IMG/VR virus record: IMGVR_UViG_3300042691_028200 | Location: 1-36,570 of that record | Direction: 5' to 3' (one strand) | Source: a virus | Length of the DNA stretch: 36,570 nucleotides | Shown here: positions 2,360 to 26,900 of the stretch, in pieces | Numbering within the stretch: the stretch's first letter is position 1 | Layout of the letters: each line of letters begins with the position of its first letter | Position numbers and translations under genes: made by a program | Notes under the pieces: generated by a model | The model's database searches: none | What the model was told of the DNA's origin: nothing | What the model saw: only the letters and a program-made list of their open reading frames with translations

Positions 2360-4461
2360 TGGTTATTAGTAAAAAGGTACCGGTAATTCAAAATATTTCA
2401 CAATCGAATAAAGTTTTAAAATTCGGATCAACTGATACAGAAGAGAGTTTTTTATTAAACAAGGAAAGATTGGGTGAGAATTGGGAATATTTCAATAAGG
2501 AAATTGAATATAGATACAATTCTTGGGGATATAGAACTAAGGAATTCGAGGAACTAAAAGATGATTATATGATTGTCTTTGGTTGCTCGTTTACCGAAGG
2601 TATTGGATTACATTATGACGATTTATGGTCGACCAAATTAGGTAAAGAACTCAATCTTGATGTATTGAACTTAGGTATGGGTGCAACTGGAATTGACTTC
2701 CAATTTTACAATACCATATTAATACATAGCTACATTTTAAAGAGAGGTAAACTGCCGAAAATGGTGATTTACCAATGGCCAAATAAATATAGAAAGACAT
2801 TTGCATTCAAGGGGGAAAACACTAGTGGTGATAGAATTAATTTGGATTTATTTTCTATCACATATCCTAAAAATGTTTATCCTAAATCGGTAAATGATTA
2901 TTTTGAATGGTATAAGGCGAGTTATGTTGAAAATCAAGGCGAACAAATTAAAGATATTGCGTTAGGTATCACTCTATGTAATAATTTATGGGAATCATTA
3001 AATATTCCTGTAATAAATTGGCAATGGGCTGATGATGTTGGTTATGAATTTAATTTTATTCACGAAAATAAAATAAAAATACTTGGAATCTACGATAATA
3101 CTAACATTAAGGCTAGAGACTGCTCTCATAATGGTTCAGTTGTTCAAACATTAATTGTGGATGAAATATTAAAATCTTTGAGAGATGATAAAAGAGTTTA
3201 TTGTTCACTTGAAGATTGGGATAGTGTTTTGAATTATTATAGACCCAACGGTTCTTCTAAATCTTGGTATCTTAATGAAACAGGGAATTTTGATTATCCT
3301 AAAATGTGGGGAGTTTGGAACCTATTCAATATTGAAGACGGAAATAAGCCGTTTGGTCATGATGTGATAGTGGAAAATACGACACCAAAGTATGGTGATG
3401 ATGTTGTATTTCAAACAAAAGATGAGATTAGAGGAAAGAAACATCTATACATCATCAATGTATATGATAATCAATTCTTTAAGAAAAATGAGGAGATTGG
3501 ATTTAAATGTATATCTGAACAATATATCAATGACATCAAAAATGGTAAATGTAAAATAGTGATGATTCATCAATTCGAAGGTTATAGTGCGTCATCATCA
3601 AAGAACAACGATTTAGATATAATTGATTCTTGGATTAGAGAAATAGACTTACCTCACGAATCGGTATACTATATTCACGGCAACTTATTGGTAGATGAGG
3701 TTAGAAAAGAAAAAGGGTTTAAATTTAACTGCGTTCCAATTTCCATTTTTGATTCTTGGATTGATTACCGAGTGTTTAAAGATGAAATGGTCGAATTTAA
3801 ACCTGTAGATAATGGATTTCTTTTCTTATCTTATAATAGAAATCCAAGATACCATCGAGTTTATTTAGTTTCCGAGTTTTTAAGACAAGGATTATTGAAT
3901 AAAGGTAGAGTGAGTATAGGTAAGTTCGATAGTGATGAAACAGAATCAATTAAATTGTTATCTGAAATGTCACCATTAATTATTGACAGAACATTAGACA
4001 TTAATTGGGCGGGAAATCTTGAATTGCCGGACCATGAAGCAACTTTTATGTCGATTGTTACTGAAACATTAATTGACGAATCTGTTCTTTTTATTTCTGA
4101 AAAAATTTGGAAACCGATTGTTGTCGGACATCCGTTTATGATTTTAGGTAATGTTGGAACATTAAAATACATCAAAGACTTAGGATTTAAAACATTTGAT
4201 AAATGGTTTGATGAGAGTTATGATAACGAAACGATTCATCACAAAAGAGTGGATATGGTTGTTAGTGAAATCAATAGATATAGAGACAAATCGATTGATG
4301 AATTAAAAGCAATCAGAGAGGAAATGAGAGAAACTTGTGTTTATAATAGAAATAGATTTTTGGAAATTATTAAAGACAAGTACGACTACGACGGAATTGG
4401 TGGAAGTAATAATAAGAAACCATTAGTTGAAATTTTTAAAGAGATATATAAAACCTTTTAA
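2359..4461 (+). CDS. Fusion: SGNH hydrolase-like domain plus SEK-family glycosyltransferase-like domain
   Basis: The 700-residue protein has two parts. Residues about 65-275 look like an SGNH/GDSL esterase or acyltransferase: FGCSFTEG puts the nucleophile at Ser77, NLGMGATG resembles the block II glycine, and DCSH at 254-257 fits the D-x-x-H dyad. Residues about 360-700 match the C-terminal part of the gene that follows: SYNRNPRYHR (491-500), SIVTET, SEKIWKP (580-586), HPFMILGN and FKTFDKWFDESYD. This second module recurs in the genes at 4464, 6914 and 16912. A combined glycan O-acylation and sugar-transfer role is inference. Coupled by TAATG to the gene before. Confidence 0.7.
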   Translation: MVISKKVPVIQNISQSNKVLKFGSTDTEESFLLNKERLGENWEYFNKEIEYRYNSWGYRTKEFEELKDDYMIVFGCSFTEGIGLHYDDLWSTKLGKELNLDVLNLGMGATGIDFQFYNTILIHSYILKRGKLPKMVIYQWPNKYRKTFAFKGENTSGDRINLDLFSITYPKNVYPKSVNDYFEWYKASYVENQGEQIKDIALGITLCNNLWESLNIPVINWQWADDVGYEFNFIHENKIKILGIYDNTNIKARDCSHNGSVVQTLIVDEILKSLRDDKRVYCSLEDWDSVLNYYRPNGSSKSWYLNETGNFDYPKMWGVWNLFNIEDGNKPFGHDVIVENTTPKYGDDVVFQTKDEIRGKKHLYIINVYDNQFFKKNEEIGFKCISEQYINDIKNGKCKIVMIHQFEGYSASSSKNNDLDIIDSWIREIDLPHESVYYIHGNLLVDEVRKEKGFKFNCVPISIFDSWIDYRVFKDEMVEFKPVDNGFLFLSYNRNPRYHRVYLVSEFLRQGLLNKGRVSIGKFDSDETESIKLLSEMSPLIIDRTLDINWAGNLELPDHEATFMSIVTETLIDESVLFISEKIWKPIVVGHPFMILGNVGTLKYIKDLGFKTFDKWFDESYDNETIHHKRVDMVVSEINRYRDKSIDELKAIREEMRETCVYNRNRFLEIIKDKYDYDGIGGSNNKKPLVEIFKEIYKTF

Positions 4462-4463
4462 TA

Positions 4464-5753
4464 ATGAATTTTGTATTTGAAGATGTTTCTACGTGTAGAA
4501 ATTTTATAAATAATTGGGAAATGAATGGTGTTGGTTCATATAGATTTACTATATCACCACTATTCAATAGAATGTTCATTTTAGGACACATAATTGAGGG
4601 GTTCGATGCTAACGTTAAAATATTCGACATCAACGATAAACCTGAAAATTATATTGTGCCGGTCGGTGTACACAATGACCCACACATTTGGGCTGGAGGC
4701 GAACACTCATCCAATCAAGAAGTAAGAAGTTTATTTGAATTTATAAACGAAACCTATTTGGATGATTTAATAAATCGTAAAGCACACCTTTTAATTGACT
4801 CAAGTTTAGAGGGTTATCATGAAGATTGGGTATTTGATTTCTTTCACAAAGAATGTGATAAAAGAGGTATATCGGCAGACAGAATGATTTTTGTTACGGG
4901 AAATTCCATCGTTGAAGAAAGATACGAAAACTGGTTGATAGAAAATCCAAAAGAAGTGAGAATGGTACCACTTCCATATTCACATTTTGAGAATGATGTT
5001 TACTTAACATCCAAACAAATGTTAGAAAATAATGACCTACCAACTTTTGAAGAACAAGTAAAACATAAAGAAAATAACTTAAATGCTGTTAGACTTTATA
5101 ATAACTTAAACAAGAAACCAAGAGAGCACAGAATATGGTTCTATAGTAAATTATTTTATAATGATTTATTGGATAAAGGATTGGTTAGTATGAATCAAAT
5201 TCATGTTTCACAAAGAAGATATTGCGGTGAGTTTATGGAACAGGAGTATGTTGAGAATTTCGCCCATACTCTACCTTCACTGATATATGGAACATCGAAT
5301 GAAATTGAAGACACTGGTTATTATATCAATAGAGTTAACCATAAAGTTTGTGATGATAGTTGGATTTCAGTGATTAGTGAGGCAAGATTTGAAGATGAGG
5401 AAGGTACCGTCTTCTTAAGTGAAAAGGTTTTTAAACCGATTGCATCTCATCACCCATTCATTATTATGGGTAATAAACATAGTCTAAGAGAAATGAAAAA
5501 GTTAGGTTATAAAACATTCTCAGATTGGATAGATGAAAGTTATGATGAGTTGGATAATTTAGAAAGAATGGATGCTATTATCAAAGTCTTAAAGGATATT
5601 GATAAGATTGAAAATAAATTAGAATGGTTCAAGGGTATGGAAGAGGTATTAAAATTTAATTACCAAGTCCTAAAACGAAATGTGATTAAGACATACCCAT
5701 ATGCCTTTAATAAATTAACCGAAATATACGGGGAAAAGAAAAAATTGATTTAA
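4464..5753 (+). CDS. SEK-family glycosyltransferase-like protein
   Basis: The 429-residue protein is a paralogue of the C-terminal half of the preceding fusion. Shared landmarks are NKKPREHRIWFYSKL (215-229), SVISEA, FLSEKVFKP (317-325), HHPFIIMGN (329-337) and YKTFSDWIDESYDE. The T/S-E-K-x-F-x-P followed by a nucleotide-sugar-type loop resembles the donor-site region of GT10 fucosyltransferases, which use GDP sugars, but the match is short. There is no signal peptide or membrane helix, so it should act in the cytoplasm. It starts 2 nt after the previous stop and is followed immediately by a sugar-nucleotide dehydrogenase. Confidence 0.65.
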   Translation: MNFVFEDVSTCRNFINNWEMNGVGSYRFTISPLFNRMFILGHIIEGFDANVKIFDINDKPENYIVPVGVHNDPHIWAGGEHSSNQEVRSLFEFINETYLDDLINRKAHLLIDSSLEGYHEDWVFDFFHKECDKRGISADRMIFVTGNSIVEERYENWLIENPKEVRMVPLPYSHFENDVYLTSKQMLENNDLPTFEEQVKHKENNLNAVRLYNNLNKKPREHRIWFYSKLFYNDLLDKGLVSMNQIHVSQRRYCGEFMEQEYVENFAHTLPSLIYGTSNEIEDTGYYINRVNHKVCDDSWISVISEARFEDEEGTVFLSEKVFKPIASHHPFIIMGNKHSLREMKKLGYKTFSDWIDESYDELDNLERMDAIIKVLKDIDKIENKLEWFKGMEEVLKFNYQVLKRNVIKTYPYAFNKLTEIYGEKKKLI

Positions 5754-6914
5754 ATGAAAGTTGGATTTATTGGTGTAGGTAAATTAGGTAAAGATGCTGC
5801 TGAGGTAATGTATGAAGCAGGGCACGATGTTTTAGGATATGACACTAGAATAGTTGAGGGTTGTAAACATGAAATGACATGGTTAATTGAGGATGTTTGT
5901 ACACATGGTGAAATTATTTTTATTGCGGTACCAACACCACACGACCCATTATATGATGGGAAATATCCGACATCACATTTAGACCCTAAAGACTTCGATT
6001 ATACAATAGTAAAAGACGTTCTAACTGAGGTTAATAAACACACAAATAAAAATCAATTAGTCGTTTTAATTTCGACAGTTTTACCTGGCACAATACGTAA
6101 AGAATTCATACCATTATGTACTAATTTTAGATTCATTTATAATCCATATCTAATTGCTATGGGTACCGTTAAAGAGGATATGATAAATCCTGAGATGTTA
6201 ATAATTGGGACTGAAGATGGTAGTAGAACTGGCGATGCTAATATATTAACAGAGTTTTATGGAACATTTATTTATCCAAAAACGAGATGTGAGATAGGAA
6301 CGTGGGATGAAGCTGAAGCCATTAAGATATTTTATAACACATTTATATCAACTAAAATTGCGTTAGTTAACATGATACAAGACGTTGCTGAAATTAGGGG
6401 TAATATTAACGTTGATGTGGTAACAGGAGCACTTGAAAGGAGTACGAAAAGAATTATAAGTCCCGTCTACATGAAAGCTGGTATGGGAGATGGTGGAGGA
6501 TGTCACCCAAGAGATAATATTGCATTAAGAACATTATCAAATGAATTAGGATACGATATATTTGATTCTATCATGAAGGCTAGAGAAGTACAGGCTGAAA
6601 ATTTAGCAAAAAAGTTAGAAAAATTATCAAAAGAATATAATCTACCTGTAATTATTTTAGGTAAATCTTATAAACCTGATGTTGAATATACCGAAGGGTC
6701 AACGTCAATACTGACAGGATACTTTTTGGAAAAAAATGGTATATCTTTTAAGTTTGATTCTGAACCTGAAACGGCGGTTTACTTATTAGCACATAGAGGT
6801 AAATTCTACGATTATCAATTTCCAAATGGTAGTGTGGTGTTAGATGTGTGGAGAGAATTTAAGACTAACAATAATAATATAAAAGTTATCCATTACGGTA
6901 ATACCAGAAATTAA
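5754..6914 (+). CDS. UDP-glucose/GDP-mannose dehydrogenase family protein
   Basis: The 386-residue protein is an NAD-dependent four-electron nucleotide-sugar dehydrogenase, making a uronic acid. GVGKLG (7-12) is the Rossmann loop, STVLPGT (107-113) and NPEML (145-149) are family motifs, Lys191 and Asn195 sit in EAIKIFYNTF, and GGGCHPRD (247-254) supplies the catalytic Cys250. The family usually has CFPKD or CLPKD, so His-Pro-Arg is a mild variant. The C-terminal nucleotide-binding domain (LGKSYKPDVEYTEGST) is shortened to about 85 residues. The sugar (UDP-glucose, UDP-HexNAc or GDP-mannose) cannot be decided here. It shares TAATG with the next gene. Confidence 0.88.
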   Translation: MKVGFIGVGKLGKDAAEVMYEAGHDVLGYDTRIVEGCKHEMTWLIEDVCTHGEIIFIAVPTPHDPLYDGKYPTSHLDPKDFDYTIVKDVLTEVNKHTNKNQLVVLISTVLPGTIRKEFIPLCTNFRFIYNPYLIAMGTVKEDMINPEMLIIGTEDGSRTGDANILTEFYGTFIYPKTRCEIGTWDEAEAIKIFYNTFISTKIALVNMIQDVAEIRGNINVDVVTGALERSTKRIISPVYMKAGMGDGGGCHPRDNIALRTLSNELGYDIFDSIMKAREVQAENLAKKLEKLSKEYNLPVIILGKSYKPDVEYTEGSTSILTGYFLEKNGISFKFDSEPETAVYLLAHRGKFYDYQFPNGSVVLDVWREFKTNNNNIKVIHYGNTRN

Positions 6915-8257
6915 TGAAAAGAAAGTTAAATTTAGTGTACGACGATTGGGTAACCGGAGAAGAGAACCCAAAACCTAACGGTGTTAAAATATACGGCAAC
7001 AATTTATTTTGGGATGGTGAAATGTTAATTAGGAACTACTATGATAGAGGATTAGCATTTGGGTATTATGAAGATTTATTTCCTGAAGAATCCGATAGGT
7101 TTGAAACTGTAAAATGTAGAATGGAGGATGTTAAAAAAAATCCAAACCGAAAATACTATTACGTAATGGACTATTTTAGATTTGATTTATGTAAAGCATT
7201 ATGTTGTGGTAATATAGAACACGGAGAATCCATCGACGCAGTTTTAAACAGAATTCCACCTATGAGTGAAGAAGTTTTAAACTCATTGAGAGAAGATAAT
7301 AACTTCTTCCTTTTAATGTTAACCGCTCATGAACCAGAAGGTGTTAAGTCATTCGAGTGTGTAAATGAATTTATTAACAAGCATTCAATTAATCCCAAAA
7401 AAATATTCATTGTAAACAACAATAGTAAATTGAATGAATTAAAGCACACATTTGCACCTGATGTAAATGTACACTCAATAAAGTTTATTCCAAGCACATC
7501 AAACTATAGTTTAACGAGAGTCAACTCAAGATTCAACTCAAACAAAGAAGGTAAATTCTTTTTATGTCATAATAGATCACCCAAAGTCCATAGATATGGT
7601 ATTCTAACATTACTTAAACATGAAGGGATTTTAGAAGACGTAAATTGGTCATTAGTGCCAAGTTATAGTGCCGCTGATAAAGGTTTTTTCGGTACCCTAT
7701 TTAACAGACAAGATTTTAAAACATATGAAGAAGAAATTGATTATTTTAGGTCCGTTGATATAAAAAGAAGTGATTATGAGGTAGACGAAAAATGGTTTAA
7801 ACCAAATACACCAGAAATAAATGTTGACGGATTACCAACATGGATGAGAGTACCTGAAAAAGAACTTACGTTCGAAAACTCCTACATCAATATAGTAACA
7901 GAATCATCATATATTGATAGTGATTTTATTGTTCACATCACAGAAAAATCATTCAGGCCATTCTACCACTATCAACTACCTTTATTTGTTGCATCACATC
8001 ACCACATTAAACTTTTAAAGGAAATATATGGTTTTGATATGTTTGATGATATTATAGACCATTCATATGATGATATTTTAAATCATAGAGATAGGTTATT
8101 TAAGATTGTTGAGGAGATAAAAAGACTGAACGGGAAGAAAGAAGAAATTAAAGAGTTCTATAAGAACAATTACGAAAGATTTGAAAAAAATAAAATTATA
8201 ATTTATAACATCTTGAAAAATACAGATGATTATTTATTTTTTAGAAATTTAATTTAA
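6914..8257 (+). CDS. SEK-family glycosyltransferase-like protein
   Basis: The 447-residue protein belongs to the same family as the genes at 2359 and 4464 and is closest to that at 16912. The N-terminus has LNLVYDDW; the core has HNRSPKVHRYGIL (219-231), SYINIVTESS, HITEKSFRPFYHYQLP (341-356) and YGFDMFDDIIDHSYDD. The T-E-K block followed by a P-hydrophobic stretch recalls the TEK..(A)..PIYWG donor-binding region of alpha-1,3-fucosyltransferases (GT10). I infer a cytoplasmic glycosyltransferase, possibly using a GDP sugar. It starts in the stop codon of the dehydrogenase gene. Confidence 0.65.
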   Translation: MKRKLNLVYDDWVTGEENPKPNGVKIYGNNLFWDGEMLIRNYYDRGLAFGYYEDLFPEESDRFETVKCRMEDVKKNPNRKYYYVMDYFRFDLCKALCCGNIEHGESIDAVLNRIPPMSEEVLNSLREDNNFFLLMLTAHEPEGVKSFECVNEFINKHSINPKKIFIVNNNSKLNELKHTFAPDVNVHSIKFIPSTSNYSLTRVNSRFNSNKEGKFFLCHNRSPKVHRYGILTLLKHEGILEDVNWSLVPSYSAADKGFFGTLFNRQDFKTYEEEIDYFRSVDIKRSDYEVDEKWFKPNTPEINVDGLPTWMRVPEKELTFENSYINIVTESSYIDSDFIVHITEKSFRPFYHYQLPLFVASHHHIKLLKEIYGFDMFDDIIDHSYDDILNHRDRLFKIVEEIKRLNGKKEEIKEFYKNNYERFEKNKIIIYNILKNTDDYLFFRNLI

Positions 8258-11126: not shown

Positions 11127-12326
11127 ATGTATCAAGATTTTAATTGGCCGTTAATCAACGATAATATATCTAAAGAAGATAGAGAAGTCCTTGCTGATTT
11201 TGTTCTGAATGGTAAAAGATTCACCAACGGAGAAAAAGTTAGAGAATTCGAATCTATTTGGTCCAAATGGTTAGGTGTGAAACACAGTACTATGGTTAAC
11301 TCCGGTAGTTCTGGTAATTTTATATCAATGGCAATGGTTAAAGAATTAAGAGGTGTGGGTGAAATTATTGTACCACCACTTGGTTGGGTTTCTGACATAT
11401 CATCAGCATTACAATTAGGTATGACCGTTAGGTTTGTAGACATCTCAATTAGAAACCTTTCAATTACCGCCGATAACATTAGAAAAGCAATCACACCTGA
11501 AACTAAAGCAATCGTATTAGTCCATTGTTTAGGATTCAATGCGATTAATGAAGAAATTATCAAAATTGCTAAAGAACATAATCTATTATTAATTGAAGAT
11601 TGTTGTGAAGCACACGGAGCAACATTCAACGGTCAAAAAGTTGGTTCATTTGGTGACATATCAATATTCTCATTTTATTTTGGACATCACATAACAACTA
11701 TTGAGGGTGGTATGGTTTGTGTTAACGATGACAAATTACATGATTTAGCTCGACTATTTCGTTCACACGGAATGACAAGAGAGGCATCAACTGAATTACA
11801 AGCGAAGTATAGAAAATCACACCCACATTTAAATCCACTATTTACATTTTCGGTACCAGGTTTTAATATGAGAAGTACCGAACTCAATGCTGTTTTAGGT
11901 ATTGAACAAATGAAGAGAATTGACAACAACATTGAGAAACGTAGACACAATTTAAAAGTTTGGTTGGAGAATTTAGATAATAGAAAATACGTCACAAATT
12001 ACAATACAGAAGGTAATAGCAGTTTCGCTTTACCATTAATAATTTTACCTGGTTATTCATCACAGTTCAAAGTAAATGATGATTATTCAAGTGTGTGTGA
12101 TTTGTTGAATTTTGAAAAAGTTGAGTATCGTTTAGGGACTGCAGGTGGAGGTGACCAAACATCACAACCATACATGGAGAAGTTCACGTATTTTGTACAT
12201 GGTAGTACCGCAAACATTGATTGGGTACATAATAATTCATTATATATTGGTAACCATACTGATTTAACTGATGAACAAATAATTAATTTGTGTAATAAAC
12301 TAAATAAGGTATTCGATGAGTTTTAA
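11127..12326 (+). CDS. ColD-like GDP-4-keto-6-deoxymannose 3-dehydratase (DegT/DnrJ/EryC1/StrS fold)
   Basis: The 399-residue PLP protein of the sugar aminotransferase fold has NSGSSGNFISM, PPLGWVSDIS, EDCCEAHGA and SFYFGHHITTIEGGMV. In ordinary sugar aminotransferases the residue before this last turn is the lysine that binds PLP. Here it is His188, as in ColD, where this substitution turns the enzyme into a 3-dehydratase that removes the C3 hydroxyl. A GDP-mannose 4,6-dehydratase two genes on would supply ColD's substrate. I chose ATG 11127 because a longer TTG start at 11100 would place the -10 box of P2 inside the gene. RfbH-type CDP-sugar dehydratase is the main alternative. Confidence 0.8.
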   Translation: MYQDFNWPLINDNISKEDREVLADFVLNGKRFTNGEKVREFESIWSKWLGVKHSTMVNSGSSGNFISMAMVKELRGVGEIIVPPLGWVSDISSALQLGMTVRFVDISIRNLSITADNIRKAITPETKAIVLVHCLGFNAINEEIIKIAKEHNLLLIEDCCEAHGATFNGQKVGSFGDISIFSFYFGHHITTIEGGMVCVNDDKLHDLARLFRSHGMTREASTELQAKYRKSHPHLNPLFTFSVPGFNMRSTELNAVLGIEQMKRIDNNIEKRRHNLKVWLENLDNRKYVTNYNTEGNSSFALPLIILPGYSSQFKVNDDYSSVCDLLNFEKVEYRLGTAGGGDQTSQPYMEKFTYFVHGSTANIDWVHNNSLYIGNHTDLTDEQIINLCNKLNKVFDEF

Positions 12327-13290
12327 AAATAAGAAAATATTAATTACAGGTGGTTGCGGAATGATTGGAAGATCATTGGTAGATAAACTACTAAAAGAGG
12401 AGTGTGAAATAACTGTGGCAGATTTAACCGCACCAACAGACTTACCCGATGGTGTTAAGTTTGTTAAAGTTGACTTAAGAGATTTTCACGCATGTTTACG
12501 CATATGTGCCGAAAAAAACTATATCTTCCATTTAGCAGGTGTTAAAGGGTCACCAAAGATGGCTTTAGAACAACCTAAAGATTTTATGGTACCAATGTTA
12601 CAGTTTAACACTAATATGATGGAGGCCGCATTTCGTTCTAACGTTGATTGGTATCTTTATACTAGTTCAGTCGGTGTTTACTCACCGGCAGAAGTGTTTT
12701 TTGAAGATACAGTATGGTCAACATTCCCATCACCAAATGACAAGTATGCTGGGTGGGCAAAAAGAATCGGTGAACTACAAGCTGAGACATATAAAATACA
12801 ACACAGTTGGGACAGAATTTCAATAGTAAGACCAGCGAACGTTTATGGTTTGTATGATAACTTCAACCCAAAAAATGCAATGGTTATCCCCTCACTAATA
12901 AGAAAGGCACAAGAGAATGATGTACTTGAAGTATTTGGTGACGGTAGTCAGATTAGGGATTTTATATTTGCCGATGATGTTGCAAATGGTATGATTCATG
13001 CCGTTAAAAATAAGATAACACAACCCATAAATTTAGGTTCAGGAAAGGGGTTTACAATAAAAGAAATTGTGGATATTGTTGTAAAATATTCAGGTAGAGA
13101 CATTGAAGTTAAATGGTTAACAGATGCACCTGCTGGTGATAAAATTAGATTGTTTGATACAACTCGAGCTAAACTTTATGGATTCGAAGCGACAATAGGT
13201 TTAGAAGAAGGAATTGGAAACACAACTAATTGGTTCATCAACAATAAAGAAACATTAGATAAAAGATATAACGCATTTGTTAATGGATAA
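12316..13290 (+). CDS. NAD(P)-dependent epimerase/reductase, extended SDR
   Basis: The 324-residue protein has the Rossmann motif TGGCGMIG (11-18), FHLAG, LYTSSVGVY and RPANVYG, all typical of nucleotide-sugar extended SDRs. The catalytic pair appears as Y144-AGWA-K149, that is Y-x4-K rather than Y-x3-K, so either the register is shifted or this is a family variant. With the ColD-like enzyme just upstream (11-nt overlap), a ColC- or WcaG-like role (C4 reduction with or without C5 epimerisation of a GDP-keto sugar) is a reasonable inference. The next gene starts inside its end. Confidence 0.82.
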   Translation: MSFKNKKILITGGCGMIGRSLVDKLLKEECEITVADLTAPTDLPDGVKFVKVDLRDFHACLRICAEKNYIFHLAGVKGSPKMALEQPKDFMVPMLQFNTNMMEAAFRSNVDWYLYTSSVGVYSPAEVFFEDTVWSTFPSPNDKYAGWAKRIGELQAETYKIQHSWDRISIVRPANVYGLYDNFNPKNAMVIPSLIRKAQENDVLEVFGDGSQIRDFIFADDVANGMIHAVKNKITQPINLGSGKGFTIKEIVDIVVKYSGRDIEVKWLTDAPAGDKIRLFDTTRAKLYGFEATIGLEEGIGNTTNWFINNKETLDKRYNAFVNG

Positions 13291-14236
13291 TTTTTTTAAA
13301 GATAAGAAAGTAGTTGTCACCGGTGGTTCTGGTTTTATTGGTACCCATTTTTTAAAGGAACTAATAAACAGAGGTGCTAGAGTGAGAACATCAACGAACA
13401 ACGCACAATTACAATTTGAAAGTGACGAACTAATAGTATATAAAGGTTTAAATTTATTGTCATTAGATGATTGTCTTAAACTTACTGAAGACGCAGATTA
13501 TGTTATTCATTGTGCTGGAGAAGTTGCACATCCATCATCAGTACCGACTGATGTTCAAATATCCCTAAAACAATTAAACTTAATTGGGAATGTATTAGAA
13601 TCTTGTGCTAAGAATGGTGTTAAACGATTCTTAGATTTGAATAGTTCGACGGGTTACCCTGATATTAGACGACCATTAACTGAAGACGAATATTGGGTCG
13701 ATGAACCGTATAAATCTTATTATGGTTATGGTTGGATGAGAAGATATAGAGAGAAGTTAATGGAACATGTTTCTAAGTTCTCAGGATTAGAAATTGCACT
13801 CGCAAGATGTACCGCAATATTTGGTCCACATGATAACTTTGACCCTAAAACTTGTCACGTAGTTCCGGCATTAATTAAACGAGTACTTGATGATGAAAAT
13901 CCTTTCACCGCATGGGGTTCACCTGATGTAGTAAGAGATTTCTTATACGTTAAAGATGTTGTTGACGGAGCATTATTGATTTTAGAAAAAGGTGAATCGA
14001 TGAGACCATATAATTTAGGTTATGGTGGAGGAATTACCATCGGTGAAATATTAGATACCATATTAAAAGTAACGGGTAAAACTCCTGATATTGTGTGGGA
14101 TAATACTAAACCAACAACAATACCATATCGTGCCGTTAGTACCGATAGAATTCAAAATGAATTAGGATTTAAACCGAAATACACATTTGAAGAAGGTATT
14201 AGGGAAACAATAGAATATTATAAAAATAAAAGTTAG
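13283..14236 (+). CDS. NAD(P)-dependent epimerase/dehydratase, extended SDR
   Basis: The 317-residue protein has TGGSGFIG, IHCAGEVAHPS, DLNSSTGY, RCTAIFGP and VRDFLYVKDVV, marking a nucleotide-sugar SDR. The catalytic Tyr region reads YGYGWMRRYRE, with Arg where Lys is usual (Y-G-W-M-R), so its catalysis may differ from canonical members. It resembles the preceding SDR in layout, suggesting an old duplication. I use ATG 13283 rather than the TTG two codons upstream, which leaves an 8-nt overlap. It may be the second reductase or epimerase for the dideoxy-sugar path. Confidence 0.78.
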   Translation: MDNFFKDKKVVVTGGSGFIGTHFLKELINRGARVRTSTNNAQLQFESDELIVYKGLNLLSLDDCLKLTEDADYVIHCAGEVAHPSSVPTDVQISLKQLNLIGNVLESCAKNGVKRFLDLNSSTGYPDIRRPLTEDEYWVDEPYKSYYGYGWMRRYREKLMEHVSKFSGLEIALARCTAIFGPHDNFDPKTCHVVPALIKRVLDDENPFTAWGSPDVVRDFLYVKDVVDGALLILEKGESMRPYNLGYGGGITIGEILDTILKVTGKTPDIVWDNTKPTTIPYRAVSTDRIQNELGFKPKYTFEEGIRETIEYYKNKS

Positions 14237-14239
14237 AGT

Positions 14240-15247
14240 ATGAATGTATTAATTACTGGGATTTGTGGAATGGTGGGATCACACTTAGCTGATTTTCTTT
14301 TAGAAAACACTGATTGGAAAATTTATGGGTTTACAAGATGGAATGATTCACTTGAAAATTTAGAACACCTATCGGATAGAATAAATAAGAAAGATAGAAT
14401 CGAATTGGTATATGGAGATTTAAACGACCTCGTATCAATATCAAATGCCGTCGAGATTTCTAAACCTGCGTATGTTTTTCATTTAGGGGCACAATCATAC
14501 CCACAAACAAGTTTCATATCACCAGTAGAAACATTACAAACTAATATCATTGGTACAACTAACTTGTTAGAGGCATTAAAGAACTCAAGATATAAAGAGG
14601 CTTACATTCATGTTTGTGCCTCAAGTGAAGTGTTCGGTAAAGTACCAAAAGAAAAATTACCGATTGATGAGGAGTGTAGTTTTCATCCAGCGTCACCATA
14701 CGCAATTTCAAAAATTGGAACTGATTTGATTGGTAGATACTATGGTGAGGCTTTTGGGATGAATGTGATGACAACAAGAATGTTTACACATACAGGGCCA
14801 AGAAGAGGTGATGTGTTCTCCGAATCAACATTTGCAAAACAAGTTGCAATGATTGAGGTTGGATTACAAGAACCAAAAATTTATGTGGGCAATTTAGAAT
14901 CATTAAGAACTTACGCGGACGTTAGAGACGCTGTTAGAGCATATTACATGTTATTAACTATCAATCCCACTAAAGGTGAGTACTATAACATTGGAGGTAG
15001 TTACACTTGTAAAATTGGTGATGTGTTGAATTACTTCATCAGTAAATCGACGGTTAAGAATATTGAAATTGTAATTGACAAAGATAGATTAAGACCTATC
15101 GATGCTGATTTACAAGTACCAAATACTAATAAGTTTAAACAACACACTGGTTGGGAACCAACTATACCTTTTGAAAAGACAATGAATGATTTGTTGGAAT
15201 ATTGGAGGGATAGAGTGAAGACCGGTAGAAAATTTTTAAATAGATAA
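14240..15247 (+). CDS. GDP-mannose 4,6-dehydratase family SDR
   Basis: The 335-residue protein carries TGICGMVG (6-13), FHLGAQSYPQTSF, CASSEVFG (Ser128-Ser129-Glu130) and the canonical YAISK (Tyr154, Lys158). The aligned string HTGPRRGDVF is characteristic of GDP-mannose 4,6-dehydratases and related GDP-sugar enzymes. It would convert GDP-mannose to GDP-4-keto-6-deoxymannose using bound NADP as internal hydride carrier, feeding the ColD-like dehydratase. Length is close to the family norm. Closely related 4-reductases (RMD) share many motifs, so the exact reaction is less certain than the family. Confidence 0.85.
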   Translation: MNVLITGICGMVGSHLADFLLENTDWKIYGFTRWNDSLENLEHLSDRINKKDRIELVYGDLNDLVSISNAVEISKPAYVFHLGAQSYPQTSFISPVETLQTNIIGTTNLLEALKNSRYKEAYIHVCASSEVFGKVPKEKLPIDEECSFHPASPYAISKIGTDLIGRYYGEAFGMNVMTTRMFTHTGPRRGDVFSESTFAKQVAMIEVGLQEPKIYVGNLESLRTYADVRDAVRAYYMLLTINPTKGEYYNIGGSYTCKIGDVLNYFISKSTVKNIEIVIDKDRLRPIDADLQVPNTNKFKQHTGWEPTIPFEKTMNDLLEYWRDRVKTGRKFLNR

Positions 15248-15248
15248 A

Positions 15249-15683
15249 ATGAAAGAGAGAAAGTACTTGCCAACATTGGCAGAATTAATTGACCGAATGA
15301 GTATTTCACAACTTAAAGAAGTATTCATCACAGAACATAAAGAAGAGTACGGTAAAGAGATTAGTGATATTCAACACGACGTACAACTTTTTTTAGATGA
15401 TAACCCTAACTGTATAACTGCGGAAACTATCAGAGCAATTATTGTTTTGGCTCAGACTAATTTACACATTTGGCACAATGAATCTAATTACCGTAAAGGA
15501 ATTAAAGAAGGGAATAACCTTGAATTAACACATGGTTTGAATGGTGTTAGAAATACTGCTAAGAATAGAATACAAGAAGTTGTTGGTGGTAGAAAAGATT
15601 ATAAGTTAGATTGTTTGGCCGCTGAATTTCAAAATTGGGGAATTAGTTGGGAAGGTAATAAAGCAGAAGAAAACGAAGGGTAA
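15249..15683 (+). CDS. Hypothetical helical protein
   Basis: The 144-residue protein is predicted to be mostly helical, without signal peptide or membrane segment. Notable stretches are LPTLAELIDRMSISQLKEVF at the start and LAQTNLHIWHNES followed by LELTHGLNGVRNTAKNRI. The latter looks like a conserved helix pair with two histidines and an Asn-Glu-Ser turn. I do not recognise a named family, though similar small proteins occur in large phage genomes in my recollection. It sits between the GDP-mannose dehydratase (1-nt gap) and an oxygenase (TAATG overlap). Confidence 0.7.
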   Translation: MKERKYLPTLAELIDRMSISQLKEVFITEHKEEYGKEISDIQHDVQLFLDDNPNCITAETIRAIIVLAQTNLHIWHNESNYRKGIKEGNNLELTHGLNGVRNTAKNRIQEVVGGRKDYKLDCLAAEFQNWGISWEGNKAEENEG

Positions 15684-16294
15684 TGTATAGTAAAAATAAA
15701 ACTGATTTAGTTGAATTAGGTTACACGATTATCGATGATTTCTTACCAACAGATGTTGCACAAAAAATTCATTCATTATTTGTAAATGAAACGAATTGGG
15801 ATTTGAAACATCAGGTTCGAGACCATCATTATGAACATGTTTTTAAAACCGAATCACCGTTTCTCCCAAAAGGAGATGAGTCGTATTCAACACGATTCAA
15901 TAGGTCAGTTAATTTGGAACAAAACGAAGATATTAAAAATTTATATAATGAATATTTTGTTCCGATGTTAAAAGAAGTATCACCATTTGAGTTGAACGAA
16001 TTCGATGTGAGATGTCATAAGTCAGAGAGAGGTGATTATTTTAGAACACACATCGATGATTATGGTGGAAACATTAATCTAATTTACTACGTCAACGAAA
16101 AGTGGATGTGGGATTGGGGTGGAATATTGAACATCGCCGACGACAAAGACTTCGATTTTAATAAACAAATATTACCAAAATTTAATAGAGTTACATTATT
16201 GAATAACAAGGTTTTTAGATCTCCTCACTTCGTAACATCTGTTGAGGAATATGCACAATTCCCGAGATATTCGATTGTATCATTTAACAAATAG
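15683..16294 (+). CDS. 2OG-Fe(II) oxygenase
   Basis: The 203-residue protein has a jelly-roll dioxygenase signature. RTHIDDYGGN gives His123 and Asp125, SPHFVTSV gives His182, and RYSIVSF provides Arg195 for 2-oxoglutarate. It should hydroxylate a substrate with O2 and 2-oxoglutarate, releasing succinate and CO2. The EKWMWDWGGILNI strand before the distal His is typical of the prolyl 4-hydroxylase-like group. In this context the substrate could be a sugar, peptide or amino acid side chain. It is one of five such genes in the window and ends with TAG. Confidence 0.82.
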   Translation: MYSKNKTDLVELGYTIIDDFLPTDVAQKIHSLFVNETNWDLKHQVRDHHYEHVFKTESPFLPKGDESYSTRFNRSVNLEQNEDIKNLYNEYFVPMLKEVSPFELNEFDVRCHKSERGDYFRTHIDDYGGNINLIYYVNEKWMWDWGGILNIADDKDFDFNKQILPKFNRVTLLNNKVFRSPHFVTSVEEYAQFPRYSIVSFNK

Positions 16295-16297
16295 ATT

Positions 16298-16927
16298 ATG
16301 ATTAAGAATTTAGAACAATACCCAATCGTAAACAAACCCTTATGGGACACACACGGACTTATTGGGTTTGAGAAGAAAATTGCAGACCATTGGGAAGCTG
16401 GAAGAATACGAGGACCAATTCACTTAAGTGGTGGTAATGAAGAACAACTAATTGAGATTTTCAAAAGAGTTAAAAATACTGATTGGGTATTTTCAACATG
16501 GAGATCACATTATCATGCACTATTAAAAGGATTACCTTCAGAATGGTTAGAACAAGAAATATTAGAAGGTAGGTCAATTACTATTGTTAATAAAGAAGAA
16601 AAGTTTTATAGTTCCGCAATTGTTGGTGGAATCATACCAATTGCAGTTGGTGTTGCAATGGCTAATAAAAGAAAAGGTATCAATGATACAGTATGGTGTT
16701 TTGTTGGTGATATGACATATGAAACTGGAACCTTTATGGAAAACTACAAATATGCAAAGAATTTTGATTTACCTATAAGATTTGTGGTTGAGGATAATGG
16801 AGTATCTACTAACACCCCCACCATTGAAACTTGGAATAAGAAAAGTGAAATACCGGAAGATGTTATTTGGTATCAATATAAAAAAGAGTGGCCGCACTAC
16901 GGAACAGGAAAATGGGTGATTTTTTAA
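16298..16927 (+). CDS. TPP-dependent enzyme, E1-alpha-like subunit (short)
   Basis: The 209-residue protein matches the cofactor half of E1-alpha/transketolase-type enzymes. STWRSHYHALLKGLP parallels the hR-HgH segment, GGIIPIAVGVAMA precedes the TPP motif, and GDMTYETG (from 137) through VVEDN (Asn167) follows the GDG-X(~27)-N metal and diphosphate motif with Met in place of the third Gly. It lacks the C-terminal third of pyruvate dehydrogenase E1-alpha (about 360 residues) and ends at a GTGKWVIF tail that looks natural. The partner pyrimidine-binding subunit is the gene at 18111, after one intervening gene. Confidence 0.82.
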   Translation: MIKNLEQYPIVNKPLWDTHGLIGFEKKIADHWEAGRIRGPIHLSGGNEEQLIEIFKRVKNTDWVFSTWRSHYHALLKGLPSEWLEQEILEGRSITIVNKEEKFYSSAIVGGIIPIAVGVAMANKRKGINDTVWCFVGDMTYETGTFMENYKYAKNFDLPIRFVVEDNGVSTNTPTIETWNKKSEIPEDVIWYQYKKEWPHYGTGKWVIF

Positions 16928-18114
16928 ATTTAGTATACGACGAAGTTGATGTAACGAAAGTACAAATCACTAACTACATGAATACCTATGTCGGTTTTTC
17001 AATGTATAAAGTATTTGACATAAACAATATTCCAAATGATAATGAAAAGTACTATTATTTTTTTGAATATCGTTATTATCTAACGTCATATATTGTTGCA
17101 CAAAAAAAATTACCATTTAGTGACTTAGTGATAGAATTATTAAAAACTAATCCTAACTTTAATTTAATAATTAAAAACGATGCAGAATCTGATGATGACA
17201 TTTTAATTGAATCCCTCGACACCATTTTTAAAAATATCGGTATTGATACAAATAAAATTGTTGTCATCAATTGTAATGAGAGAAATAACGATTTGAAAGT
17301 TAGATTGAATAGTAACATAAAAACACAAACAACTAACAATGGTAAATGGGCAATATCGAATTTATTAACGTCATTTCCATATGATTATAAAGACGATAGG
17401 TCATCTTTATTTATGACGTATAATCGTAACGTTAAGATACATCGTTTTGCATTATTAGTACATTTGATGAAACAAAATATCATCAATAATGTGGATTGGA
17501 GTTGGATTAGAGGATTTGAAGTTAGAAATAGTTTTATACCCAAAGATATTGAACTAACAGATTGTTGGTTTTTAAAACCACTCTTTAATGATGAGGAAAT
17601 TAAAGACCATGAAAATGAAATAACAGATTTAGCTAATGTCGATGTTAAAAAAAGTGTTAATGAAAAGGATTATGAAGTTGACTTCCCACCTTACAAATTT
17701 GATTGGGATGCATCATATTCCAATAACCCTTATTCAAACTCATATATTAACATTGTCACAGAAACTAATTTTGATAAGGATGATATAATCATATTGAGTG
17801 AAAAGTCATTCATACCATTGTACTATTCACAAATACCGATAATCATGGCAAGTACTAATCATATTAAGAAAATGAGAGACCTTTATGGTTTTGATTTTTT
17901 CGATGATGTGGTAAATCATAGTTATGATAGTGAACCTAATCCTAAGAAAAGATTTGAAATGATTATTAACGAAATAATCAGATTGAACAATAAGAAAGAA
18001 GACATTATCACTTTTTTCAAACAAAACAAAGAACGTTTTGACAAGAACATTCAAATTTTTGAAAAAATAAAAAACGATAAAACAGATTATAATTTTTACA
18101 ATAGTTTACGATGA
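16912..18114 (+). CDS. SEK-family glycosyltransferase-like protein, inserted between TPP subunit genes
   Basis: The 400-residue protein starts MGDFLNLVYDEVD, matching the LNLVYDDW start of the paralogue at 6914, so I use ATG 16912 rather than an upstream GTG at 16888. Core landmarks are TYNRNVKIHRFALL, SYINIVTETN, ILSEKSFIPLYYSQIP and YGFDFFDDVVNHSYD. It overlaps the TPP alpha gene by 16 nt and the beta gene by ATGA. This suggests that the three are made together and act in sequence, for example branching a sugar and then transferring it. Glycosyltransferase activity is inferred from the GT10-like block and the context. Confidence 0.65.
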   Translation: MGDFLNLVYDEVDVTKVQITNYMNTYVGFSMYKVFDINNIPNDNEKYYYFFEYRYYLTSYIVAQKKLPFSDLVIELLKTNPNFNLIIKNDAESDDDILIESLDTIFKNIGIDTNKIVVINCNERNNDLKVRLNSNIKTQTTNNGKWAISNLLTSFPYDYKDDRSSLFMTYNRNVKIHRFALLVHLMKQNIINNVDWSWIRGFEVRNSFIPKDIELTDCWFLKPLFNDEEIKDHENEITDLANVDVKKSVNEKDYEVDFPPYKFDWDASYSNNPYSNSYINIVTETNFDKDDIIILSEKSFIPLYYSQIPIIMASTNHIKKMRDLYGFDFFDDVVNHSYDSEPNPKKRFEMIINEIIRLNNKKEDIITFFKQNKERFDKNIQIFEKIKNDKTDYNFYNSLR

Positions 18115-18650
18115 ATCAAGACACAAGTTATAAAGACGCATTAACAAATGCTATGACATTTTTGGGTGAGAAACCCAACACCATTTTTATTGGACAACAA
18201 ACATTGTTCCCTGGCAATCCTATGAGTACCACGTTAGGTAACGTACCGAAAGAAAAAATTATTGAATTACCCGTAATGGAGGATTCACAAATGGGTATGT
18301 CTTTAGGTATGGCAATGACGGGTGATTTTGTTGTCACCTTTTACCCGAGATGGGATTTTCTTGTTTGTGCAACCAATCAACTACTTAATCACTTAGATAA
18401 GATTAAGTTAATGAGTAATAACCAATGGAACCCAAACATTATAGTACGTTTAGGTAAGGGGTCCGATAATCCAATTGATCCAGGACATCAACATAAAGGT
18501 AGTTATTTTTTAGAGTACCAATCTCTTTGTAGAAACATAACGTTCCATAATTTATCATCATTCGAAGCAATTGAAGACACCTACCAAGAAGTTTATGAAC
18601 AAGGTGGAATACACATTATAGTCGAATATCCCGAACTTTATACACGATAA
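18111..18650 (+). CDS. TPP-dependent enzyme, E1-beta-like pyrimidine-binding subunit
   Basis: The 179-residue protein matches the Pyr domain of E1-beta/transketolase proteins. ELPVMEDSQMGMSLGMAMTG places Glu57 as the residue that activates the thiamine aminopyrimidine, and RWDFLVCATNQLLNHLDKI corresponds to the conserved F-x-D-F...NQ-x-N-x-x-K region. The C-terminal transketolase domain of full E1-beta (about 330 residues) is absent. Together with the alpha-like gene at 16298 it should form one heteromeric TPP active site. Its place in a deoxysugar cluster suggests carbon-carbon bond formation on a keto sugar rather than central metabolism. Confidence 0.82.
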   Translation: MNQDTSYKDALTNAMTFLGEKPNTIFIGQQTLFPGNPMSTTLGNVPKEKIIELPVMEDSQMGMSLGMAMTGDFVVTFYPRWDFLVCATNQLLNHLDKIKLMSNNQWNPNIIVRLGKGSDNPIDPGHQHKGSYFLEYQSLCRNITFHNLSSFEAIEDTYQEVYEQGGIHIIVEYPELYTR

Positions 18651-19708: not shown

Positions 19709-21331
19709 ATGTATATAATTGGAGTATCAGCATATTATCACGATTCCTCAGCTTGTTTGTTTAAAAACGGTGAGTTATTGTTTGCATGCGAAGAAGAAAA
19801 ATTCACAGGAATTAAACATGATTCCTCGTTCCCACATAAAACCATCGACTATATTTTGACAACATATAAGTTATCTAAAGATGACATTGAATGTGTGTGT
19901 TATTATGAGGACCCAGCGTTAAGATTTAAAAGAAAAAAATCATTCTTCACTTCTTTATTGAATAACATCAAAGTTAGATATAATTTAAGTAAAATATCAA
20001 ACAAGATTCACTATACACCACATCACTTATCGCATATGGCATATTCGTACTATTCATCCAATTACAATGAATCGGTGATAGTCTCCATTGACGGAGTTGG
20101 TGAAACTTCAACAGTTTCATTTGGTAAAGGTGTTGGTGATAAGATTAAACAATTAAAGACAATCGAATATCCACATTCAGTTGGTTTATTTTATTCCGCA
20201 ATGACTGCGTTTTTAGGATTCAAACCAAATGAGGGAGAATATAAGGTAATGGGATTAGCGTCTTATGGTAATCCATCAAAATATCGAGATAAAGTCAGTA
20301 AACTTATAAAATACAAACAAGAAGTATTAACGTGTAATATGGATGTTTTTGTTTGGGATAAAGAGGATACTATAATGTTTAACCATCAACTTGGAGAGGT
20401 ATTAGGTTTACCAAATAGATTACCAAACGAACCACTTACACAAGACCACAAAGATTTGGCAGCATCAGTACAAGAAAGATATGAGTATATCTTTTTCAAA
20501 ATTTTAAAAGAGGCTAAACATTTATTTAAATCTGATAATTTATGTTTGGGTGGTGGATGTGCGTATAACGGTAAAGCGAATGGATCAGTAGTTCCAAGTG
20601 GTTTATTTAAACATTTATGGGTACCACCAGCACCTTCTGACGCAGGTAATGCAATTGGTAGTTGTTTATATTACCTATCATTGAATAAGGCAACTAGAAT
20701 AAACCCAACACCATTCTTAGGACCATCGTACACAGAAAGTGAAATTTATAATGCGTTAACTGATTACAAACCGTTAGTGACTTTTGAACGATTAAACGAG
20801 GAAGTAATTTTAAATAAAATTGCAAAATGTTTGAATAATAATTTGGTTGTTGGATGGTATAGAGATAAGATTGAATTTGGAGCTAGAGCATTAGGTAATA
20901 GGTCAATATTGGCAAATCCAACACATCCTGATATGAAAGATAGGATTAATCGAGTAATCAAGAAGAGGGAAGGTTTTAGACCATTTGCACCAATGGTGGC
21001 ATTTGAAGATCAAGAGAGATACTTTAAATCAAAAGAGTATGTTCCTTATATGAATCAAGTTGTTGAAGTAAAAGATGAATATAAAGATAAATTACCATCT
21101 GTAACACATATTGATGGAACCGCTAGAATACAATCTGTTACACCATATAATAAAATCTATCTATTACTAAAAGAATTTGAAAAATTAAGTGGGTATCCAA
21201 TTTTATTAAACACATCTTTTAACGTAAAAGATAAAACCATGGTCCTAACTCCTGAAGATGCATTATTTACATTTGTAGATACTGAAATGGATGTTTTGGT
21301 TATGGGAAATTACATAGTATATAAAAAATAA
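19709..21331 (+). CDS. Carbamoyltransferase, NodU/CmcH/TobZ family
   Basis: The 540-residue protein has the full two-domain plan. The N-terminal Kae1-like part has GVSAYYHDSSACLF (5-18), HHLSHMAYSYYSS (from 105, metal-binding histidines) and SIDGVGETST. The C-terminal YrdC-like part has LGGGCAYNGKANG, EFGARALGNRSILA, EGFRPFAPMV and LNTSFNVKDK. The family makes carbamoyl-adenylate from carbamoyl phosphate and ATP and transfers the carbamoyl group to a hydroxyl, often on a sugar or antibiotic. Length is close to the family norm and all signature motifs are intact, so it is probably active. It would decorate the glycan built by its neighbours. Confidence 0.93.
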   Translation: MYIIGVSAYYHDSSACLFKNGELLFACEEEKFTGIKHDSSFPHKTIDYILTTYKLSKDDIECVCYYEDPALRFKRKKSFFTSLLNNIKVRYNLSKISNKIHYTPHHLSHMAYSYYSSNYNESVIVSIDGVGETSTVSFGKGVGDKIKQLKTIEYPHSVGLFYSAMTAFLGFKPNEGEYKVMGLASYGNPSKYRDKVSKLIKYKQEVLTCNMDVFVWDKEDTIMFNHQLGEVLGLPNRLPNEPLTQDHKDLAASVQERYEYIFFKILKEAKHLFKSDNLCLGGGCAYNGKANGSVVPSGLFKHLWVPPAPSDAGNAIGSCLYYLSLNKATRINPTPFLGPSYTESEIYNALTDYKPLVTFERLNEEVILNKIAKCLNNNLVVGWYRDKIEFGARALGNRSILANPTHPDMKDRINRVIKKREGFRPFAPMVAFEDQERYFKSKEYVPYMNQVVEVKDEYKDKLPSVTHIDGTARIQSVTPYNKIYLLLKEFEKLSGYPILLNTSFNVKDKTMVLTPEDALFTFVDTEMDVLVMGNYIVYKK

Positions 21332-26676: not shown

Positions 26677-26900
26677 TGATAGTAGAAAGAAAAAGACACA
26701 TCGCCAAAACAATATCTTACCGTATTATATCTACCTTAATTGGATTTGGTATAATGTGGTGGGTAAGTGGTGATGTTAAAGTAGGTGCAGCCTTCGGTGT
26801 TGCAGAATTGGTATATAAACCCATCCAATACTATCTACATGAGAGAGTATGGTATAAGTGGATTAAGTTTGGACTAAGAAAAGAAAATAATAAAAAATGA
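26676..26900 (+). CDS. DUF2061 small membrane protein
   Basis: The 74-residue protein fits DUF2061: basic start HIAKTISYRIISTLIG, a membrane stretch about 16-31 (IISTLIGFGIMWWVSG), a second hydrophobic segment about 36-55 (VGAAFGVAELVYKPIQYYLH) and the family ending YLHERVWYKW. Its function is unknown. I recall DUF2061 being encoded next to, or fused with, sulfate-activation genes in bacteria, and its position right after the kinase and nucleotidyltransferase genes fits that. It overlaps the halogenase gene by ATGA. A role as a membrane anchor or transport accessory for the sulfation genes is speculative. Confidence 0.85.
   Translation: MIVERKRHIAKTISYRIISTLIGFGIMWWVSGDVKVGAAFGVAELVYKPIQYYLHERVWYKWIKFGLRKENNKK

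Follow-up and report, generated by a model that had tools for sequence, protein, structure and literature searches.

Gene Content of the Block

The DNA analyzed here, called the window, comprises the full IMG/VR virus record IMGVR_UViG_3300042691_028200 (36,570 bases), and all its large genes lie on the + strand. Nine consecutive + strand genes at positions 11,130–18,650, separated by a few bases or overlapping, encode a set of enzymes (Table 1) that may build a GDP-linked 3,6-dideoxy sugar with a two-carbon branch. Family searches agree with the enzyme classes named in an original prediction made from the sequence: a 4,6-dehydratase, a ColD-like protein dependent on pyridoxal phosphate (PLP), two short-chain dehydrogenases/reductases (SDR1 and SDR2), and a split E1-alpha/E1-beta pair (E1a and E1b) dependent on thiamine diphosphate (ThDP). 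The scores were 254 bits for DegT/DnrJ/EryC1, 248 bits for GDP_Man_Dehyd, 149 and 146 bits for Epimerase, and 60 bits for E1_dh. The small gaps and overlaps make a single transcription block for the nine genes plausible, as had been proposed, but promoter and terminator scans of the window showed no excess over shuffled sequence.

Table 1. Features of the gene block and of the carbamoyltransferase gene downstream.
Feature	Coordinates	Strand	Remarks
ColD-type PLP-dependent GDP-4-keto-6-deoxy-sugar 3-dehydratase	11130..12326	+	398 aa, ATG at 11130
SDR1, extended SDR	12316..13290	+	Pfam Epimerase; YAGWAK motif
SDR2, extended SDR	13283..14236	+	Pfam Epimerase; YGWMR, Arg for catalytic Lys; start also placed at 13277
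DmhA-type GDP-D-glycero-D-manno-heptose 4,6-dehydratase (GMD-like)	14240..15247	+	7us5 371 bits vs E. coli GMD 132
Open reading frame (ORF) of 144 aa (o144)	15249..15683	+	conserved in related phages; no family match
2-oxoglutarate (2OG)-Fe(II) oxygenase	15683..16294	+	Pfam 2OG-FeII_Oxy_4 41.8 bits
E1-alpha-like ThDP-binding, pyrophosphate-domain (PP) subunit (E1a)	16298..16927	+	Pfam E1_dh 60 bits
ORF of ~400 aa, between E1 subunits	16912..18114	+	no family match
E1-beta-like pyrimidine-domain (PYR) subunit (E1b), 179 aa	18111..18650	+	profile vs pyruvate dehydrogenase (PDH) E1-beta 1.4e-14; predicted fold
NodU/NolO-type carbamoyltransferase	19709..21331	+	phrog_1601 380 bits

The 4,6-Dehydratase and Its GDP-Heptose Context

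Among solved structures, the window dehydratase is nearest to 7us5, the Campylobacter jejuni GDP-D-glycero-D-manno-heptose 4,6-dehydratase (371 bits, 53% identity), compared with 196 bits for the GDP-sugar reductase RMD and 132 bits for the GDP-mannose 4,6-dehydratase (GMD) of E. coli (1db3; 35% identical where aligned). With the GMD model TIGR01472 it scores 169.6 bits against a cut-off of 415. In the tree, the window protein, its counterparts in sister phages, 7us5, and bacterial relatives form one clade (support 95/96) apart from GMD and RMD. Its nearest characterized enzyme and this clustering with 7us5 place it in the DmhA type. Open-access titles and abstracts held nothing on point about the specificity residues of 7us5.

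Relatives with 62–69% identity are present in 9 of 349 Pseudomonadota genomes, and hddA or hddC/gmhB motifs lie within ~9 kb of such relatives in L087, L089, L090, L092, L093, L094, and L097. Most of the relatives whose surroundings can be read have a heptose kinase (HddA, recognized by the motif RTPFRISFFGGGTD), an HddC-like nucleotidyltransferase, or a GmhB motif at this distance. In one bacterial locus (L088), a true GMD (STSELYG) is present in addition to a DmhA-type gene, and the two are therefore distinct. In cyanophage Bellamy, gp219 is 54% identical to the window dehydratase and adjoins genes for a GHMP kinase (GGGTD) and a nucleotidyltransferase, and the GMD of cyanophage S-CAM7 is only 28% identical to the window enzyme. 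Because both its nearest characterized enzyme and the gene clusters around its relatives point to GDP-heptose, the substrate of the dehydratase is probably a GDP-heptose and the product sugar a dideoxyheptose. The GDP-sugar series of the original prediction is supported, but the proposed substrate GDP-mannose is not, given the gap between the 7us5 and GMD scores and the hddA/hddC/gmhB context.

The ColD-Type 3-Dehydratase

The best solved structure for the PLP-dependent enzyme is that of ColD (2gms, 208 bits), with the RfbH-type 3bcx at 153 bits. The protein belongs to the DegT/DnrJ/EryC1 family, its FYFGHHITTIEGG aligns to FYSHHIATMEGG of ColD, and in SFYFGHHITTIEGG a His replaces the PLP Lys (FGHHITT), as in ColD. 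The reading as a plain aminotransferase, one of two findings that would have refuted the original prediction, was dropped because of this replacement, and the assignment as a ColD-like 3-dehydratase is supported. The HH pair is kept in every ColD relative adjoining an E1 pair. The enzyme falls outside RfbH, the iron–sulfur E1 enzyme of CDP sugars, scoring 215.7 bits with NCBIfam PRK15407 against a cut-off of 423, and the iron–sulfur Cys cluster was not found, there being zero Cys between HHITTIEGGMVCV and VPGFNMR.

ColD-like matches also extend to 62 phage records, of which 54 are from Synechococcus phages. In S-CAM7 (L111, 6091–9149), the genes for GMD, GDP-fucose synthase, and ColD are consecutive and likely represent a route to a GDP-3,6-dideoxyhexose; named cyanophages already carry this combination.

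The Minimal ThDP-Dependent Pair

In E1a, the ThDP-binding motif reads GDM...EDN, with GDM in place of GDG; the metal-binding Asp138 is present in every aligned row and Asn167 in 90% or more of them. E1b scores 25.6 bits with Transket_pyr, just below the cut-off of 27, and in a profile search matches residues 5–176 of the 329-aa PDH E1-beta (1.4e-14), i.e., the PYR half only. Its AlphaFold model (pLDDT 90) superimposes on the best E1-beta chains with TM scores of 0.83–0.87 over the query and ~0.48 over the target. In E1b, neither the catalytic Glu57 nor His128 of the active site varies, even in distant members. With the Asp/Asn of the PP subunit and the Glu and active-site His of the PYR subunit, the pair belongs to the E1-type ThDP enzymes, in a minimal form that combines a single PP domain with a single PYR domain and lacks the C-terminal domain of E1-beta.

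The two genes are adjacent or overlapping in bacterial loci and usually one to several genes apart in these phages, and fused forms occur in a Prochlorococcus and a Parcubacterium as well as in cyanophages S-SM2 and P-TIM68, with L037 and L040 among the loci concerned. The subunits therefore belong together. Being two subunits that match E1_dh and Transket_pyr, they differ from the single-chain acetolactate-synthase type represented by YerE.

The pair is also unlikely to be a PDH E1: it scores 91.6 bits with the PDH E1 model against a cut-off of 393.9, and no E2 or E3 was found among the gene families identified in the window. On these grounds, and for want of the C-terminal domain, a role in central metabolism was dropped, and the second finding that would have refuted the original prediction was thus not obtained. 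A plasmid match followed up as a candidate named sugar-branching E1 pair was likewise rejected, the best one being an ordinary PDH with full-length E1-beta and E2 alongside.

The Cassette in Other Viruses

An IMG/VR search with E1a yielded 25 loci with 70–90% identity. The order ColD–SDR1–SDR2–GMD–o144–2OG–E1a–(other gene)–E1b is intact in 12 further viral loci (L006–L013, L019, L022, L023, and L025), which include near-duplicates and represent ~9 distinct ones, and truncated copies interrupted by contig ends occur in additional loci. This recurrence goes beyond chance, and the intact order indicates that the set travels as a cassette.

Alternative phage cassettes (L014–L017, L026, and L028; around 6.5–15 kb) contain E1a, other SDRs, and E1b, with neither ColD nor DmhA within the stretch covered. 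Directly upstream of E1a in these loci is an SDR whose best match is PDB 6vo6 (386 bits; the next match, 103), which we take to be Cj1427. The function of Cj1427 is that of a GDP-heptose C4-dehydrogenase (PMC10680097). Also directly upstream of E1a is a cupin gene; the eight best PDB matches of its product all belong to the epimerase group of the C. jejuni heptose pathway (118–126 bits, against 87 for an ordinary RmlC). One ThDP pair therefore accompanies two different routes that make GDP-4-keto-heptoses. L027 shows the arrangement cupin–(other gene)–E1a–DmhA–E1b.

Bacterial Counterparts

Bacteria were surveyed through a scan of 84,980 genomes and a SAR11 sample; among the matches listed and in that sample, short E1 pair members occur in many lineages. 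The pathway is not restricted to phages, and versions of it are present in SAR11, Parcubacteria, and Verrucomicrobia. E1a, E1b, and ColD stand together in L033, L034, L098–L101, and L103, with HH in all ColD relatives. The parcubacterial order (L033) is SDR1–SDR324–GMD(35%)–ColD–E1a–E1b, Verrucomicrobiae L034 has a Cj1427-like gene with E1a–E1b–ColD, and SAR11 loci L098, L099, L101, and L103 have the E1 pair with ColD and a Cj1427-like gene. SAR11 L097 has HddC–GmhB–SDR1 followed by HddA, a cupin, E1a–E1b, and DmhA (62%), and Pelagibacteraceae L030 has SDR1–E1a–E1b–GMD(37%). The novelty originally claimed for the combination is accordingly narrowed: the cassette is carried by phages, but versions are also found in these bacteria.

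Across 297 SAR11 genomes, 6 of the 9 with the short E1 pair have a Cj1427-like gene or a DmhA of at least 59% identity (0.76 expected, p = 1.4e-5), 4 of the 9 have a ColD of at least 41% (0.45 expected, p = 5e-4), and such a ColD coincides with a Cj1427-like gene in 11 of 15 cases (1.06 expected, p = 1e-11), mostly no more than 5 kb apart; these p-values ignore kinship among the genomes. The other E1-pair genomes (G543, G606, and G652) have the pair on contigs shorter than 6 kb.

A ColD-type gene adjoining a Cj1427-like gene, with no E1 pair found, was also observed in SAR11 G466, G558, G579, G624, G650, and others. This arrangement would yield GDP-3-deoxy-4-keto-heptose, which has been produced in vitro as a novel compound (PMC10680097). 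In addition, a DmhA (69%), an HH-type ColD, and HddA adjoin an apparent split transketolase-type pair at L087:8678–15569, as if a different ThDP enzyme had replaced the E1 pair.

A Proposed Pathway

The reading toward which we lean, with modest confidence, is that the phage cassette converts GDP-heptose of the host to a 3,6-dideoxy sugar with a two-carbon branch. The DmhA-type enzyme would convert GDP-heptose to GDP-6-deoxy-4-keto-heptose, from which the ColD-type enzyme would strip the C3 hydroxyl to give GDP-3,6-dideoxy-4-keto-heptose. The two small ThDP subunits would then form one E1-like active site that decarboxylates pyruvate and transfers the acetyl unit to C4, and SDR1, perhaps with SDR2, would reduce the new branch to a hydroxyethyl group. 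The sugar may afterward be hydroxylated by the 2OG oxygenase and carbamoylated by the NodU-type enzyme, and neighboring glycosyltransferases may place the product on a host surface polymer or on the virion. The pathway is proposed because its first two steps have precedent in C. jejuni HS:5 and the C2 addition in E1-type pairs.

The enzyme classes, the retained catalytic residues, the GDP-heptose context, and the linkage between the ThDP genes and those for 4-keto-sugar enzymes are supported by the comparisons of sequence and gene order; we infer the order of steps, pyruvate as donor, C4 as acceptor, the division of labor between the SDRs, and the final destination. Relatives of SDR1 with 44–51% identity accompany E1 pairs in L030, L033, and L097, and because of this recurrence SDR1 is proposed as the better candidate for the branch-ketone reductase, SDR2 possibly being an epimerase.

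Apart from the kinship ignored in the SAR11 p-values, several points weigh against this pathway. The 7us5 branch is long in the dehydratase tree, which is thus not decisive alone, and ColD enzymes act on hexoses and heptoses alike and so do not discriminate the substrate. GmhA-type SIS and NTP-transferase genes are absent from 13 related phage contigs examined; GDP-heptose must therefore be supplied by the host. In SDR2, the Arg that replaces the catalytic Lys is invariant in the phage proteins and in the bacterial relatives L088 and L091, and several SDR1 relatives (L014, L015, L017, L028, and L091) have Phe for the catalytic Tyr, which makes the reductase roles unsure. The window pair has been likened to AviB, EvdU5/S3, and KbDH by description only, not by sequence. 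Finally, the fused ThDP enzyme of S-SM2 and P-TIM68 adjoins a zinc dehydrogenase, with no ColD match in the stretch examined, and the ThDP acceptor may therefore differ in those phages.

Alternatives to the Proposed Branched Heptose

The alternative that survives best, although we regard it as rather unlikely, is an unbranched GDP-3,6-dideoxyheptose or 6-deoxyheptose whose C4 keto group an SDR reduces in the manner of C. jejuni, with the ThDP pair serving another sugar or reaction of the same glycan cluster. Once the C3-dehydratase has acted, C. jejuni requires only an epimerase and a C4 reductase (PMC10440746), and ColD stands with a Cj1427-like gene where no E1 pair was found in SAR11 G650, G579, and G557. 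Against this, the orders E1a–E1b–ColD or SDR1–E1a–E1b recur in SAR11, Parcubacteria, and Verrucomicrobia, and in phages the pair accompanies both types of 4-keto-heptose maker.

A hexose series, in which GDP-mannose would be converted to GDP-3,6-dideoxy-4-keto-hexose and then branched, as a GDP counterpart of yersiniose, is unlikely. GDP-mannose is common in host pools, heptose synthesis genes are absent from the phage contigs, and in S-CAM7 ColD accompanies a true GMD and GDP-fucose synthase; however, the window dehydratase is far closer in identity to the GDP-heptose enzyme and to Bellamy gp219 than to the S-CAM7 GMD, it falls far below the GMD equivalog cut-off, and its relatives lie in an hddA/hddC context.

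It is quite improbable that the added unit is longer or hydroxylated, as with the YerE relative ErwE or the miharamycin transketolases, rather than acetyl from pyruvate. The identity of the donor is not readable from the sequence, and in L087 the genes for DmhA, ColD, and HddA have a split transketolase-type pair close by, but enzymes of the alphaKADH2 type apparently make C2 branches only, mostly from pyruvate (PMC12247030). Capture of a central-metabolism E1 (PDH or branched-chain type) as a phage auxiliary gene is highly improbable: the best named relatives are indeed PDH E1 subunits, but the PDH score, the missing C-terminal domain and E2/E3, the full-length E1-beta and adjacent E2 of the plasmid PDH homologue, and the constant sugar-gene context all stand against it.

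Comparison with Known Systems

For the proposed branched heptose pathway, the closest likeness in the early steps is that of C. jejuni HS:5/HS:11, in which a GDP-heptose 4,6-dehydratase is followed by a PLP-dependent ColD-type C3-dehydratase; in HS:5, GDP-3,6-dideoxyheptose is formed through the same first two steps (PMC10440746). In C. jejuni, a C5-epimerase and a C4-reductase follow, with no ThDP enzyme and no branch, whereas the window has two SDRs and no cupin epimerase. In the biosynthesis of aldgamycin, kibdelomycin, trioxacarcin, avilamycin, and everninomicin, the attachment of a two-carbon unit from pyruvate to a keto sugar is a known or proposed reaction of E1-type pairs (PMC12247030; PMC10338323). 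The alphaKADH2 pairs (aldgamycin, kosinostatin, KbDH-alpha/beta, and EvdU5/EvdS3) resemble the window in having an E1-alpha/E1-beta-type ThDP pair among sugar genes (PMC12247030; PMC10338323), but they belong to antibiotic clusters and act on other nucleotide sugars, whereas the window subunits are minimal PP and PYR domains in a GDP-heptose context.

The yersiniose A pathway (RfbH-type E1, YerE, and YerF) likewise proceeds through 4,6-dehydration, 3-deoxygenation, addition of a C4 acetyl by a ThDP enzyme, and reduction, but in the CDP-hexose series. YerE is a flavoprotein of the acetolactate-synthase type, not of the E1 type, and the 3-dehydratase of yersiniose is of the iron–sulfur RfbH type. 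The YerE and RfbH-type distinctions are also drawn in PMC10338323. YerE, cited as precedent in the original prediction, thus shares the logic of branching but comes from a different ThDP superfamily.

In cyanophages S-SM2 and P-TIM68, the ‘transketolase central region’ protein (phrog_34187) is of the same ThDP family and has both domains, the alpha part being 45–49% identical, and its gene lies near kinase, nucleotidyltransferase, and phosphoheptose isomerase genes. It differs in being a single fused protein next to a zinc dehydrogenase, with no ColD match nearby. Bellamy shares the DmhA-type gene (54%) with GHMP kinase and nucleotidyltransferase, and S-CAM7 shares ColD, there with GMD and GDP-fucose synthase, but no ThDP pair is annotated within the stretches examined.

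Other Genes of the Block and the Window

The o144 protein is 71–99% identical over 14 aligned rows with a large invariant core, and is as conserved as the cassette enzymes. It is confined to phages among the loci examined, where its strand and its position before or after E1b vary. It has no Pfam or PHROG match, and its predicted model is all-helical with low confidence (pLDDT 48). The 2OG-Fe(II) oxygenase is a possible sugar-tailoring enzyme. The gene between E1a and E1b differs from phage to phage; the ~400-aa ORF at this position in the window is perhaps a glycosyltransferase. A NodU/NolO-type carbamoyltransferase lies near E1b in most related phage loci, and in Bellamy a carbamoyltransferase gene also adjoins those for GDP-heptose.

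Elsewhere, too, the window is glycan-like, with DUF5672, DUF6734, GT25, GT4, a UDP-glucose dehydrogenase-like gene, several 2OG oxygenases, the NodU-type carbamoyltransferase, and a tryptophan halogenase. The halogenase family protein (26897–28129, 304 bits) lies within this glycan region, and five 2OG-Fe(II) oxygenase-like genes are present in 36 kb (starting at 15683, 21459, 28136, 28789, and 32996), two of them weak matches. Three large ORFs have no family match: 2359–4461 (700 aa), 4464–5753 (429 aa), and 6914–8257 (447 aa), the last of which resembles an ORF 3′ of E1a in the alternative phage cassettes. No phage hallmark gene was found among the window genes, and a nucleotide-level DNA search of the phage collection gave zero matches; the phage origin is indicated indirectly, by the IMG/VR record and by a T4-type Gp23 capsid gene that two related contigs carry, G006 with 51.7 kb and G008 with 326 kb.

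Implications

Each step of the pathway has separate precedent; what would be new is their combination in a GDP-heptose series, in bacteria and phages. No report of a C2-branched heptose, or of such a function for this ThDP family, was found in the open-access literature, and open-access titles and abstracts held nothing on point about GDP-heptose in SAR11. The lipopolysaccharide genes of pelagimyophages are treated in PMC7029224, the sections consulted making no mention of the present pathway.

We tentatively suggest that GDP-activated 3,6-dideoxyheptoses with a C2 branch at C4, together with 4-keto-heptose relatives, may constitute a new class of natural sugars, that the minimal split E1-type carboligase may span SAR11, candidate phyla, cyanobacteria, and their phages, and that the phage may remodel host GDP-heptose in a competition over an undescribed surface sugar. 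If so, abundant aquatic bacteria and their phages would be predicted to bear a nine-carbon branched sugar in their envelope, and dideoxyheptose formation and E1-type sugar branching, separately known chemistries, would become linked. Among E1-type ketone-branching enzymes, none has a known structure (PMC12247030), and the pair would offer a small ketone-accepting carboligase useful for biocatalysis. Moreover, a ThDP family annotated so far just as ‘transketolase central region’ or as unknown (phrog_34187) would acquire a testable function.

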